The notes beneath the pieces are model-generated. The model was not told the DNA's origin, did no database searches, and worked only from the letters and a program-made list of their open reading frames with translations. From contig JACPCC010000099.1 in assembly GCA_016179995.1 (NCBI GenBank), positions 1 through 12,691 on the forward strand: a DNA stretch of 12,691 nucleotides, read 5' to 3'. Each line of letters begins with the position of its first letter. Position 1 is the first letter of the stretch. This document shows, in pieces, positions 6,484 through 12,584 of this stretch. The DNA comes from Candidatus Woesearchaeota archaeon (lineage in GTDB: Archaea; Nanobdellota; Nanobdellia; Woesearchaeales; GW2011-AR9). Position numbers and translations under genes: made by a program.

Positions 6484-6738
6484 ATGACTGAAATTGAAAC
6501 TGCGAAAATGTCAGAGCGAGGACAAATAATTATTCCAAAAGATGTAAGAGATTATATTGAAGCTGGTGAAAGCACAATCTTTACCATTATGCCACTTGAT
6601 AGAGAAACAATAATTATGAAGAAACTAGATAAACTGAAGATGATAGAGGAGTTTAGAAATATTCGCACAAAGGCAAAAGAAAAATTAACTTCTTCTGAGG
6701 TAAATAGAGAGATAAAGAGAATTCGAAAACAAAATTAA
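6484..6738 (+). CDS. AbrB/MazE/SpoVT-family antitoxin
   Basis: This 84-residue DNA-binding protein has the swapped-hairpin AbrB fold. KMSERGQIIIPKDVRDYIEAG (8-28) is the family hallmark, matching S-(K/R)-G-Q-(I/V)-x-(I/L)-P-K-x-(I/V)-R. After this, FTIMPLDRETIIMKKL forms the second beta hairpin. The C-terminal half, rich in K, E and R, is helical and probably wraps and neutralises the toxin. The ribosome binding site GGTGAT lies at 6472-6477, and a TATA at 6443-6451 gives a short leader. The PIN-domain gene starts 9 bp after the stop. By family behaviour it should neutralise the toxin and, alone or with it, repress the operon through the repeats at 6405-6441. Family assignment is strong; the toxin pairing is inferred from context. 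Confidence 0.9.
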   Translation: MTEIETAKMSERGQIIIPKDVRDYIEAGESTIFTIMPLDRETIIMKKLDKLKMIEEFRNIRTKAKEKLTSSEVNREIKRIRKQN

Positions 6739-6747
6739 ATTAGCCTC

Positions 6748-7152
6748 ATGATAAGAGTGGTTTTGGATACAAATATAGTAATCTCAGCAGCAATCTCATC
6801 AGATGGGAATCCAGCTCTAATTTTTGAAATGCTCATACTTGAAGAAATAGAGAACTATACTACACAGAAGATTATTGATGAAATTAAAGCTGTTTTTCAA
6901 CGACCAAGAATAACTAAAATTGTTAGTTTAATTGAACAAAATTTTATGGTAAATACATTTGAACAATTCTCAGAAATAATAACTCCCAATGTTAATTTTA
7001 AAGAGATAAAAGATGATCCCGATGATGACAAATTTCTTGATTGTGCGGTTAGTGTTTCTGCCTACTTCATCATCTCTGGAGATGAACATTTGTTAAAACT
7101 TCAAGAGTTCAGAGGCATAAAAATTATCAATCCGCTGAATTTGTTAAATTGA
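6748..7152 (+). CDS. PIN-domain ribonuclease, toxin of a TA pair (COG1569-like)
   Basis: This 134-residue protein is a PIN-fold RNase of the 'putative toxin component, PIN family' type. It has a Mg-dependent acidic cluster: D7 in VVLDTNIVISA, E45 in the helix KIIDEIKAVF, D94/D98 in the stretch DPDDDKFLDCA (91-100), and D112 in SGDEHLL. All acidic positions expected for catalysis are present, so it should be active. VapC-like PIN toxins cut tRNA or rRNA; the target here cannot be told. The pair is AbrB-type rather than the commoner RHH or Phd antitoxin. ATG 6748 lies 9 bp after the antitoxin stop with no clear SD, suggesting translation coupled to the antitoxin. The gene ends normally, followed by a hairpin at 7211-7236. 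Confidence 0.9.
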   Translation: MIRVVLDTNIVISAAISSDGNPALIFEMLILEEIENYTTQKIIDEIKAVFQRPRITKIVSLIEQNFMVNTFEQFSEIITPNVNFKEIKDDPDDDKFLDCAVSVSAYFIISGDEHLLKLQEFRGIKIINPLNLLN

Positions 7153-9188: not shown

Positions 9189-10144
9189 TTAATCTGTGGT
9201 TGAATTTTTAACTTGATATCTTAGAAGATTAGTACTATTCTTTTTATATCTCTCCAACAGTCCAACTAAAAACTCTTCATGTTGTTCAGTTACTATGGTC
9301 ATTTTTGTTCGATCATGACTTACTTGGATGGTTGGGGCTAGTCCTTGTGCTATCAACGCTTTTCTAAGTACGTTTCTTATACCCAATATAGTATTTCTTG
9401 GACCTCTTAAATCAACATCAACCTCATATCTGCATAGGTTTGACATTTTCTCTTCTAGCGACTCGGCACTATCATTAACTTTTCCTTGGATATAATGTAT
9501 GAATCTTAACTCAGCATAAGATTGATTTTCAAACATACTATCTTGACCAGAGCGTTCTCTAAAAGCCCTAGTTGCATCTTCAATATGATCTAAATAAGTA
9601 GGCCTCTCTGTGTGTTTAATAGTCACTGGGTAATGTCATTGTGGTATAAAATCATATTTTGCATAAGTCGAGATGTTCGTCCGTTTCCATCAGATAACGG
9701 ATGTATCAAAGAAAAATAAAGATGAAAACATAATGCTCTTTCTAATATTCTTATATCTGGATTATTTACATAAGAAAGTAACTTATTCATTTCTCTTTCA
9801 ACTTTAGCAGGGTTAGTCATAACATAAATATTTTCTTTACCTGCTATACGAACACTTTCATTTCGATATCCACTGAGTCTCTGATCTATTTCTCTAGCTA
9901 CTTGACAAATCAAGCCCATATCCATAGTACCATTATAGTGTTCAAGAGAAATATCCCAGGCTTTCAATAATCTTTGATGCGTTGCTTTACTGGTGGAATC
10001 TACTTCTAATTTATCTGAGTGAGAAATGGCATCAAAATTTAGTGTTTTAAGGGCTTAATCATTTAATTCATCAGTATATAAAAAATGATTTCTAATTTTA
10101 TCTAATGTCAACTCTAGTTCTGAAAATAGTTTTTCATCTAACAT
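9189..10144 (-). pseudogene. fic: Fic-domain protein gene, broken by a stop codon and a frameshift
   Basis: Fic proteins usually transfer AMP from ATP to target proteins. The catalytic motif is intact: HPLSDGNGRTSR, coded around 9655-9695, matches HxFx(D/E)GNGRxxR with leucine for the phenylalanine. Upstream, SDKLEV resembles a weakened (S/T)xxxE(G/N) inhibitory helix. The natural reading frame begins at ATG 10144, where a TATA (GTTTATAAAC, 10166-10175) lies about 26 bp upstream. It meets TAA after 29 codons (10055-10057). A second lesion near 9633-9634 shifts the frame just after the motif. Dropping two bases there restores HND-YPVTIKHTERPTYLDH, the usual Fic continuation. The 3' part (9626-9189) then runs on to about 318 codons in all, normal for such proteins. 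Two independent lesions argue for decay, although a sequencing error at either is possible. Confidence 0.82.
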
Positions 10145-10359: not shown

Positions 10360-11304
10360 ATGACTAAACTTCCAAACTTTTCTAGCAGAGCTTTTTTTGC
10401 TCCCATGGCTGGTCTGTCTGATCCAGCTCTGCGTTTATTATGCAAAGAATTAGGAGCCGGTTTAGTGGTTACAGAATTTATCAGCATCCATGCCGTGACA
10501 GCCAAAGCTGAAGATATAACTAAATTTATAGAGTTTTCTGAAAAAGAACGCCCTTTGGCAGTGCAATTATTTGGTTCTGATAGAGAAAAATTAAAGCAAG
10601 CAGTAAAAATAGTAGAGCCTTATTTTGATATTATTGATTATAATATGGGTTGTCCTGCTCCACATATCACTGAGCAAATGGCTTGTTCTGCTTTGCTTCA
10701 AGAGCCAGAACTAACCAGGAAAATATTTCGCACGTTAGTTCAATCTACTTCCAAGCCAGTTTCTGTTAAAATGAGAGCAGGAATTACTAAACCAGATAAA
10801 TGGCAGACTATTGCTAAAATTGCTGAGGAAGAAGGTTTATCTATGATTACCTTTCATCCACGTACAGTAAAACAAGGTTATTCAGGTAAATCTGACTGGA
10901 GCCAAATTAAAGAGTTAAAACATTTGGTTAAAATACCTATCGTTGGAAATGGGGATATTCAAACTCCGGAAGACGCCAAGCGGATGATTGAAGAAACTGG
11001 CTGTGATTATGTCATGATTGGGCGTGCTGCCGCTAAAAACCCCTTTCTCTTTCAGCAAATTAATACCTATTTTTTAACTGGATCTTATGCATCAATAACT
11101 CCCAAAGAAAGACTAAAATATTTTTTTAAGTATTTAGATTACTCTAACAATTTTGAGATTAAAACTTCTCTAATTAAAATGCAGGCAATTAACTTTTCCT
11201 CTGGATGTCCTGGTAGTAAAGAATTGAGAACTAAATTGGGCAAATCAAATACATTTGAAGAGATTAATGAATTAATGACAGAATTTTATGATCAATTAAA
11301 TTGA
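10360..11304 (+). CDS. dus: tRNA-dihydrouridine synthase
   Basis: This flavoenzyme reduces uridines in the tRNA D-loop or nearby positions to dihydrouridine. The 314 residues contain the FMN-binding TIM-barrel signature FFAPMAGLSDPALRLL (12-27), QLFGSD (69-74) and DYNMGCPAP with C98, the catalytic cysteine position. They also contain K137 in VKMRAG, H166 in FHPRT (165-169), GNGDI (196-200) and the phosphate-binding IGRAAAKNP (220-228). A helical C-terminal domain for tRNA binding follows. After the cysteine the usual GAGAALL reads MACSALL, a modest variation. The gene appears leaderless, with a TATA-like box about 27 bp upstream. It stands alone, convergent with the prepilin peptidase across the structured block at 11351-11679. 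Family is certain; the tRNA position modified is not. Confidence 0.95.
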   Translation: MTKLPNFSSRAFFAPMAGLSDPALRLLCKELGAGLVVTEFISIHAVTAKAEDITKFIEFSEKERPLAVQLFGSDREKLKQAVKIVEPYFDIIDYNMGCPAPHITEQMACSALLQEPELTRKIFRTLVQSTSKPVSVKMRAGITKPDKWQTIAKIAEEEGLSMITFHPRTVKQGYSGKSDWSQIKELKHLVKIPIVGNGDIQTPEDAKRMIEETGCDYVMIGRAAAKNPFLFQQINTYFLTGSYASITPKERLKYFFKYLDYSNNFEIKTSLIKMQAINFSSGCPGSKELRTKLGKSNTFEEINELMTEFYDQLN

Positions 11305-11350
11305 TGATGTACTTATAATCATGATAATTATTTCATTTTTTAAATAAAAA

Positions 11351-11679
11351 CCGCCACCGGTCGGACAATCAGAAAAACACCGTTTTTCTTGGTGAGAAAC
11401 GTTGTTTCTCGTTTGAACCGACAATCCCAGAGGGATCAGTTGTCTTATCCGGAAATTCGAGATTCGTCTTTATAATGCTTAATTGCTCAAGCATATAATC
11501 TGACGCAATACCAGATTATGCGACGGTGGCAGGAATATAAGTTGTGCGTTTATATTGTTAAATTCTCCGTCGCGCCCAGAATCCGCAGATTCTCAGGATG
11601 CGACGGTGGCAGGAATATAAGTTGTGCGTTTATATTGTTAAATTCTCCGTCGCGCCCAGAATCCGCAGATTCTCAGGAT
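11351..11679 (+). ncRNA. Candidate structured RNA or inserted element between convergent genes
   Basis: This block is a chain of perfect hairpins, noticeably richer in G and C than its AT-rich flanks. They are AGAAAAA/TTTTTCT (11371-11389), GAGAAAC/GTTTCTC (11394-11410), GACAA-TCCC/GGGA-TTGTC (11420-11444), ATGCTT/AAGCAT (11475-11494), ATAATCTG/CAGATTAT (11495-11519), and GCGACGG/CCGTCGC (11520-11573) enclosing AATATAA/TTATATT. The last is AGAATC/GATTCT (11578-11593). GCCACCG (11353-11359) can pair with CGGTGGC (11524-11530, repeated at 11604-11610), closing a multibranched domain of about 180 nt. Both neighbouring genes end here, so it is not a leader. A TATA-like CTTATAATC (11313-11321) could start a transcript near 11340. 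Strand is assumed. I could not match it to RNase P, SRP, 5S or tRNA. No coding frame explains it. Confidence 0.6.
11520..11679. repeat. Perfect 80-bp tandem duplication
   Basis: Two head-to-tail identical units, 11520-11599 and 11600-11679, begin GCGACGGTGGCAGG and end CAGATTCTCAGGAT. Identity extends two bases further upstream of each unit. Each unit carries two hairpins (GCGACGG/CCGTCGC and AGAATC/GATTCT). Absence of any difference implies a recent event or an assembly artefact. Confidence 0.95.
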
Positions 11680-11741: not shown

Positions 11742-12584
11742 CTAAAACTTCATCCAATTCCAAATCCCTGTTCTAAACATCAACAAAATATAAGCCAGCA
11801 AGAAACATGGGACAAAGGGGATTCCTTCTTTAATCATAACTTCTTTCAGCAAACTACTTTTATACAACTTATTCAACTTTAACAAATCGTTTTTTTCTAG
11901 TGTTTTATGCTCTAAAATAATTTTTCCTTTCACTTTAACTTCTTTGGCCAGCCAATCCCCTTCTGTCAATTTTTCCACTGAAATTGAACGATAGAAGCAG
12001 TGCTTCTCTACTATTCCCAATAATAAAAAAAAGTAAAAGAAAGGCAATGGAAAAAAAACAAACGGCAAAAACATTCTTTGGATAATGGCTAAAACTATAA
12101 TTAATATGGTAGTTCCCGCTAATATTAAATGTAGTAGACGATAATCCTGTAATTCTTCCCGAAACTTATGGAATACTATTTTTCTTCTTATAACTGCTAG
12201 ATAAACCACCCATCCTAAACCATAGACTGCTCCGCAGAACAACAATGCAAAAAAGAAGAACAACAGCTCCCAGCTTGATGCTTGAAATGGCAAATCTATG
12301 CCAATAGCTGCTCCTAAGCCCATCAATAATTTTGTGTCCCCGCCGCCCCATTGTCCTAACTTATAGAGTAAATAGCCAATTAAAAATAAGATAGTAAAAC
12401 CAAGCACACCACTTTCTATAATCCACCAATTATCTGATAAGATAGAAGCTATTAATTCTATTCCTAACACAGAAAAAAGTAAACCATAACTAATCCAATC
12501 AGGTACTTCTTTTGTGCGTAAATCACAATACGATGCAGCTGCGAGAGCTACAAACGCAATAACACCTATCAAGACCTCTATCAT
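11742..12584 (-). CDS. A24-family prepilin/preflagellin peptidase (archaeal type)
   Basis: This membrane aspartyl protease cuts class III signal peptides of archaeal pilins and archaellins. The two catalytic aspartates are visible: D21 in SYCDLRTKEVPDW (18-30) and D83 in the GxGD motif GGGDTKLL (80-87). Hydrophobic spans lie at about 3-20, 32-50, 57-76, 105-130, 150-168, 172-192 and 255-275. Between the last two is a soluble segment with LTEGDWLAKEVKVKGKI (about 207-223) before GIPFVPCFLLAYI. This resembles the archaeal type II C-terminal domain attached to many such peptidases. At 280 residues it is normal for that form. A TATA-like element (12604-12614) lies about 25 bp before the ATG, so the mRNA is probably leaderless. 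No pilin or assembly ATPase gene is in the window, so the substrates are elsewhere. Confidence 0.9.
   Translation of the reverse strand: MIEVLIGVIAFVALAAASYCDLRTKEVPDWISYGLLFSVLGIELIASILSDNWWIIESGVLGFTILFLIGYLLYKLGQWGGGDTKLLMGLGAAIGIDLPFQASSWELLFFFFALLFCGAVYGLGWVVYLAVIRRKIVFHKFREELQDYRLLHLILAGTTILIIVLAIIQRMFLPFVFFPLPFFYFFLLLGIVEKHCFYRSISVEKLTEGDWLAKEVKVKGKIILEHKTLEKNDLLKLNKLYKSSLLKEVMIKEGIPFVPCFLLAYILLMFRTGIWNWMKF

Follow-up and report, generated by a model that had tools for sequence, protein, structure and literature searches.

A tRNA-Ser(CGA) gene with three introns behind a hairpin leader that copies the start of the tRNA in a Woesearchaeota archaeon

Background

Leaders of tRNAs are usually regarded as short, plain, throwaway sequence, and leaders that work by strand exchange, in which one strand has two competing partners, are represented by riboswitches and T-boxes. 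Several known arrangements of tRNA sequence come close to the one described here. 1) Multi-intron tRNA genes are found in archaea. 2) Split tRNA halves, as in Nanoarchaeum, carry a tRNA 5' piece together with a complement-seeking stretch. 3) In circularly permuted tRNAs of Thermofilum, as far as the account in PMC3218864 goes, extra tRNA sequence lies between promoter and tRNA, this sequence being the needed 3' half placed in front. 4) In Caldiarchaeum, the account in PMC3293823 places a 5' fragment of tRNA-Thr upstream, 1.8 kb from the tRNA-Thr gene, and links it to a mobile element.

The locus studied here lies in the window, by which we mean the whole stretch of 12,691 nucleotides from Candidatus Woesearchaeota archaeon that was analysed. 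Its minus strand almost certainly carries a tRNA-Ser(CGA) gene with three introns, behind two copies, one complete and the other truncated, of a leader element, here called the mini, that consists of a copy of the tRNA start, a constant module, a hairpin and a complementary strand. Like the archaeal multi-intron genes, this tRNA needs three segments removed, and the tRNA part shows no difference from them, the mini being an addition outside the gene. The mini resembles a split half but precedes a complete tRNA in cis and complements both itself and that tRNA; a split half was rejected as its identity, since with the complete tRNA directly behind no separate 3' half is needed. As in riboswitches and T-boxes, the mini strand has two competing partners; the output here would, however, be the tRNA itself, the mini is without an Rfam match, and we know of no ligand or aptamer for it. 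A permuted tRNA was likewise rejected, since the upstream copy is of the 5' end and not of the 3' half that is placed in front in the genes outlined in PMC3218864; the T-loop join near 59/60 given there for Thermofilum is at the site that is also interrupted in the window. Unlike the Caldiarchaeum fragment as outlined in PMC3293823, the mini is 3–60 nt away from its tRNA, forms a covarying hairpin and recurs across an order. No description of the mini was found in the published open-access papers searched.

A tRNA-Ser(CGA) gene on the minus strand

In a preliminary description, the block at 11351–11679 was put forward as a candidate novel structured RNA between convergent genes, and much of what was recorded there holds. 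The flanking genes do converge (see the list below), the G+C content of the block is 0.45 against 0.26 in the two 200-base flanks, and it has 9 non-overlapping perfect stems of 5–8 bp, against a mean of 2.8, with none of 300 dinucleotide shuffles reaching 9. The statement that no tRNA motif is present was mistaken: the minus strand is a tRNA-Ser(CGA), which was overlooked because the antisense strand was read, and most of the stems are the antisense image of this gene. The long-range GCCACCG/CGGTGGC helix exists, but it is the acceptor stem of the minus-strand tRNA and not part of a novel RNA. The proposal of a novel structured RNA consequently falls for 179 of the 329 bp (11352–11530, the tRNA gene) and survives for 11563–11610 and a truncated copy at 11647–11679. 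An exact 80-bp tandem repeat of two copies at 11518–11679 was absent from that description, so that some of the stems counted in it are one stem taken twice. A stand-alone RNA on the plus strand, as originally envisaged, is hardly credible: the plus strand does fold better than its shuffles (z = -3.5), but the minus strand folds better still (z = -5.4) and holds a complete tRNA-Ser(CGA), on which two grounds the plus-strand RNA was rejected, and the homologues inspected are tRNA genes or minis on the minus strand. The features of the gene and its flanks are as follows.

ends at 11304, plus: Dus gene, flanking the block
11346–11350, minus: T run 3' of the tRNA, resembling a terminator (from the sequence; putative role)
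11352–11530, minus: tRNA-Ser(CGA) gene with three introns, G1 at 11530 and G73 at 11352 (ARAGORN on joined exons, homologues in relatives)
11500–11530, minus: exon 1, acceptor 5' strand, D-arm and start of the anticodon stem (borders inferred from other tRNA-Ser genes)
11463–11499, minus: putative intron 1, 37 nt, in the anticodon stem
11456–11462, minus: exon 2, anticodon CGA (joined-exon ARAGORN call)
11442–11455, minus: intron 2, 14 nt, in the anticodon loop (ends accurate to a base or two)
11412–11441, minus: exon 3, 3' side of the anticodon stem, long variable arm and 5' side of the T-arm (joined-exon ARAGORN call)
11366–11411, minus: intron 3, 46 nt, in the T-loop (missing from the paralogue L002)
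11352–11365, minus: exon 4, 3' side of the T-stem, acceptor 3' strand and G73 (joined-exon ARAGORN call)
ends at 11742, minus: type IV leader peptidase gene, flanking the block

When the exons 11530–11500, 11462–11456, 11441–11412 and 11365–11352 were joined, an 82-nt RNA was obtained that ARAGORN, with CCA added, called tRNA-Ser(cga), and RNAfold gave it acceptor, D-, anticodon, variable and T-stems. The discriminator of tRNA-Ser is G73, and position 73 is a G here (11352). When relatives were searched at the DNA level, 109 of 191 genomes matched, the matches listed falling mostly on two query stretches, which on the minus strand are the 5' part of the tRNA and the part with the variable arm and T-arm, and in the paralogue L002 of the window's own genome the T-loop is uninterrupted. 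The ends of all three introns may move by a base or two; with borders set by comparison, RNAfold showed no clear bulge-helix-bulge at them, and the T-loop border, judged by eye, has 3 of 4 central pairs. ARAGORN found no tRNA in the unspliced gene as it stands in the DNA, and the Rfam covariance-model search that had been proposed as a check gave for the window one unrelated weak match at E<=1 and missed the tRNA gene there; the three introns account for both misses. The tRNA part of the block is thus ordinary.

Two other places in the window were noted. At 6484–7152 there are adjacent ORFs that we take to resemble an AbrB-type antitoxin and a PIN-domain toxin, and at 9189–9967 a presumably Fic-like ORF (HPLSDGNGR) overlaps a second ORF.

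Sequence plan and structure of the mini

Read on the tRNA strand, the window has 5' of the tRNA a copy of GCCACCGTCGCAT, then a hairpin, then GCGACGG. The features of this part are as follows.

11518–11679, minus: exact 80-bp tandem repeat, two copies, one with the complete and one with the truncated mini (sequence)
11531–11566, minus: spacer between mini and tRNA, with TATAAA at 11549–11554 (sequence)
11563–11610, minus: complete mini, with a copy of tRNA nt 1–13, a hairpin and the complement of nt 5–11 (R1 match, alignment)
11647–11679, minus: truncated mini without the 5' strand (sequence)

The same plan precedes many tRNA-Ser genes: after tRNA nt 1–11 come an internal-loop module that stays constant and a hairpin that varies, and the unit ends with the complement of nt 1–11. 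R1, a covariance model of the mini, matches the complete mini at 53.4 bits (E 9.5e-13; this sequence belongs to the training set of R1) and the truncated one weakly, at 11654–11679 with 15.4 bits. For alignment, 52 minis were kept after 4 of 56 had been removed as duplicates or for loops longer than 31 nt; 12 units outside the mini rule, four of them longer or decayed minis, were left out. In these 52 minis 83.2% of cells pair (68.5% when shuffled), changes on both sides occur in 15 of the 20 pairs (12.0 shuffled) and double-change cells number 168 (56 shuffled). The check for compensatory changes suggested for the block was thus positive, with a covariation score of 0.371 against 0.137 for shuffles that retain relatedness, although the scored structure was itself written from these sequences; none of 500 shuffles scored as high, and sliding the partner by 1–3 columns gave at most 0.122. 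RNAalifold, given the same alignment, predicted 14 of the 20 pairs, the inner ones from nt 6 inwards.

The basal helix matches the type of the tRNA (GUCGC/GCGAC, GUGGC/GCCAC or GUAGC/GCUAC). Between it and the terminal hairpin lies the constant module. This module is built from two bases that stay unpaired, AU in most cases, a C-G pair preceded by either A-U or C-G, and a single unpaired C on the facing side. The GUGGC-type units inspected have AC in the tRNA where the mini has AU, so the copy stops at about the end of the helix. Nine mini loci searched against Rfam at E<=0.1 gave tRNA matches only, five in number, and membership in a known Rfam family was rejected, there being no match to any curated model but tRNA. 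The structured RNA at 11563–11610 is conserved, covaries and has no Rfam match; its structure is well supported, and for its function we offer an inference below.

The covariation of the mini's own helix, strongest at nt 4–7 and in the module, would be expected of a plain leader hairpin or released small RNA that folds only on itself, RNase P cutting at the tRNA start. Its role would be that of a processing signal, a 5' shield or a separate RNA, and the copied sequence would merely mark its origin. We regard this as possible, with the odds against it. It leaves unexplained that nt 1–6 equal those of the tRNA, an equality that is partly a product of the way units were found, even where the mini's own pairing is often broken (at nt 2, 20 of 56 pair).

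The same data bear on a second alternative, in which the mini is a functionless scar left at tRNA genes by recombination, slippage or a mobile hairpin. It would have arisen either when the promoter-near end was duplicated in tandem and later decayed, or as the target-site copy of an element. The units of the window are exact tandem copies and those of L258, L263 and L268 near-exact; L015 and L118 are sister genes, one of them without the copy; other tRNAs also have partial tRNA copies; and tRNA fragments linked to integration are known in Caldiarchaeum, as far as PMC3293823 describes them. In a scar, however, one would not expect 15 covarying pairs and a constant module to persist through many families, and we consider this alternative rather unlikely.

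Distribution of the mini

Full-length R1 matches at E<=1e-4 number about 107 (counted by hand, training sequences included) and occur in 58 of the 352 genomes of the order (Woesearchaeota). At E<=0.1, 77 of the 352 match, many weakly, and 275 give no match, so the mini is dispensable. In a class-wide draw of 330 genomes R1 (E<=0.01) matched in 17, all 17 of them in the mini's own order. A strict pattern, which leaves nt 1–6 free, was found at 48 places (hand count, including two chance-like places in G093 and one unread in G137) in 31 of the 352 genomes, against 3 genomes for its backwards control, and in none of 172 genomes of other orders of the class (hand count, with a pattern fitted to the tRNA of this order). 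Among 31 named stretches, all 13 archaeal ones had an R1 match (E<=2.1e-10), in records labelled Woesearchaeota, Nanoarchaeota or 'archaeon', and the 18 bacterial ones had no comparable match (best E 0.0042). A pattern run on viral contigs was rejected as too loose, its 100 stretches yielding 80 loci with a best R1 value of E 7.6e-4.

After removal of 4 that were not serine from 132 candidates, 128 tRNA-Ser genes remained, in 57 of which the first 13 nt recur upstream (<=3 mismatches); the sample is enriched, some loci having been found through the mini, so that this is no clean frequency. The reversed motif and the downstream copy, as controls, gave 2 each. Among the 66 tRNA-Ser genes fetched solely by a tRNA pattern 12 have the copy, which is no clean frequency either, as this subset omits the loci fetched earlier. 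A looser rule gave 78 units, a set containing noise in the form of bacterial chance loci, and ARAGORN called the downstream tRNA Ser-tga in 13, Ser-cga in 11, Ser-gct in 9, Ser-gga in 5, Ala in 2 and Thr, Cys and Tyr in 1 each, with 35 uncalled.

Of 42 R1 contexts inspected by eye, 33 lead into a tRNA, whole or truncated, or into another mini that shares the start; one runs off the contig, one is the reverse of a palindromic unit and seven are away from tRNAs. These seven (L286–L291, L293) are probably chance matches, perhaps with the exception of L289 (R1 E 2.4e-4), which itself is possibly due to chance. On the minus strand of L289 an rrp41-like gene has its first bases duplicated immediately upstream, and a hairpin with the mini module comes after this duplicate; the element lies between what we take to be rrp4-like and rrp41-like genes. 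Such a module-like repeat before a gene of this kind fits the idea of a scar.

Other repeats around tRNA genes

Further copies of tRNA sequence were observed. In the window's own genome, L066, L073 and L075 share the palindrome RGGTTGATAAGGGCAGACTGCCCTTATGTGAG 40–100 nt 3' of three tRNAs, assigned by anticodon to Asn, Met and Leu, followed by a copy of the acceptor 3' strand of that tRNA; in L074 the insertion in the T-loop of the tRNA is filled by the palindrome in inverted orientation, and these four are the only places found in the own-genome search. L068, of the same genome, has a longer 5' tRNA fragment, identical in its first 11 nt and 134 nt upstream of the tRNA, which sits in a repeated stretch and has a structure that is not that of the mini.

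Mirrored copies of the tRNA-Ser 3' end lie downstream of 19 of the 128 genes (reversed motif 6, wrong side 3), for example at L022, L033, L035, L036, L042, L056, L059 and L064, and 14 of the 19 have an upstream copy too. The 22 nt before and the 110 nt after tRNA-Ser are complementary above shuffled loci in the upstream-copy set (z 4.5 with the upstream copy only, 2.8 with both copies and -0.4 with none). In L032 and L037 a complete tRNA-Ser, flanked by complementary arms, apparently lies inside another tRNA-Ser that is interrupted near its variable arm.

Promoter position

Counted per unit, a TATA-like 8-mer lies 29–36 nt 5' of the first copy in 38 of 56 units, 5' of the tRNA behind the mini in 4 of 57 and 5' of copy-less tRNAs in 51 of 68. 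The TATA box thus stands before the mini and not before the tRNA, so that the mini occupies the usual start position of a tRNA, and this placement makes it probable that mini and tRNA share one transcript. The window is an exception, for there both the complete mini and the tRNA start 24 nt behind a TATAAA; as each unit has its own TATAAA, separate promoters are possible there and the window's mini and tRNA could be transcribed apart.

The promoter position agrees with a plain leader hairpin, and so regular a placement behind a TATA box is unexpected of a scar. The spacing would also suit G1 of the mini as the first base of the tRNA, which raises a third alternative, an intron in the D-arm reaching from mini nt 14 to tRNA nt 13, with the 5' strand of the mini as the true exon 1 and the second copy intronic. 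Mini nt 1–7 can indeed pair with the acceptor 3' strand. However, among 11 units in which the two copies differ in nt 1–7, the tRNA side is the better partner in 8, the mini in 2 and neither in 1, at least two of these three exceptions using a wrongly anchored T-arm; the tRNA-side copy is therefore the mature end, and the intron was rejected. It is very improbable also by reasoning, since a bulge-helix-bulge would need nt 8–11 paired with their own copy, which is impossible.

A possible strand-exchange leader

Two folds of nearly equal energy are predicted for the precursor, since the mini has both a copy of the tRNA start and the complement of that start. We favour, with a probability of about 0.4, the reading that the mini is a strand-exchange leader that may gate maturation of the tRNA. 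Mini and tRNA would be transcribed together, mini first, and two mutually exclusive pairings would be open to the precursor. With fold A, the mini would close on itself and the tRNA pair with its own 5' strand, RNase P making the true 5' end. In fold B, the 5' strand of the mini would capture the 3' acceptor strand of the tRNA, and the 3' strand of the mini would form a hairpin with the first nucleotides of the tRNA, the spacer serving as loop and the true 5' end being hidden. The leader might in this way act as a gate or a proofreading step in tRNA maturation, and the constant module would be the likely binding site of a putative factor. The formation of fold B, the switching, the effect on RNase P and any factor we infer; conservation, covariation, promoter position, complementarity and near-equal predicted energies were computed.

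At nt 4–6, the mini and its own tRNA agree in 158 of 168 cells, against 71 when the tRNAs are shuffled, an agreement partly built in, as units were partly found through resemblance. The tRNA 3' acceptor strand is a possible partner for mini nt 1–7 in 385 of 392 cells, the mini's own 3' strand in 258 of these. Acceptor pairing survives 15 of 22 substitutions (38% expected, p 0.007); C>T changes make up 12 of the 22, an excess that may come from mutation bias on a transcribed strand. No spacer among 46 units (of 58) is shorter than 3 nt, the minimum for the loop of a hairpin. The hairpin that joins the mini 3' strand to the tRNA start is extended by the spacer ends in 40 of 81 cells (null 30.6, 1/2000), the mini's own hairpin in 37 of 81 (null 32.8, 205/2000), so that the hairpin of fold B alone beats the null and the test is a weak chooser between the folds.

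Fold B was the predicted minimum in 10 of 13 short precursors and lay on average 1.1 kcal/mol below fold A; the folded set was drawn from 57 precursors, the three-intron precursor of the window lying outside it, and in L058, one of the 13, the copy is a chance one. Near-equal energies are expected from any duplication like this. The mini, being made before the tRNA, would fold first, which suits a plain leader and, by favouring fold A, counts against the strand-exchange leader. Three possible reasons for the leader were rejected: i) loss of RNase P as its driver, as RNase P RNA was found in 44 of 48 family genomes, the window's own included; ii) service to long precursors, the median length being 122 with the copy and 131 without (p 0.24); and iii) service to intron-rich precursors, a T-loop intron occurring in 16 of 57 genes with the copy and 35 of 71 without.

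Conclusion

The introns explain how intron-rich serine tRNAs, that of the window included, escape the standard finders. In one archaeal order, a hairpin leader that mimics the tRNA start precedes tRNAs of each of the four serine anticodon classes, as well as a few others. We propose, as a tentative idea that we think may well fail, that self-copying tRNA leaders form a new class of cis-acting RNA in Woesearchaeota, made of the first ~11 nt of the tRNA and their complement, which would act as a switch by strand exchange and offer a protein or ligand a conserved module. If this is true, such a leader would act on the maturation of the tRNA itself, and its strands would track the sequence of each tRNA, as in the GUCGC, GUGGC and GUAGC types. 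The spread of the leader suggests that cells with very small genomes may control or proofread the maturation of their tRNAs.
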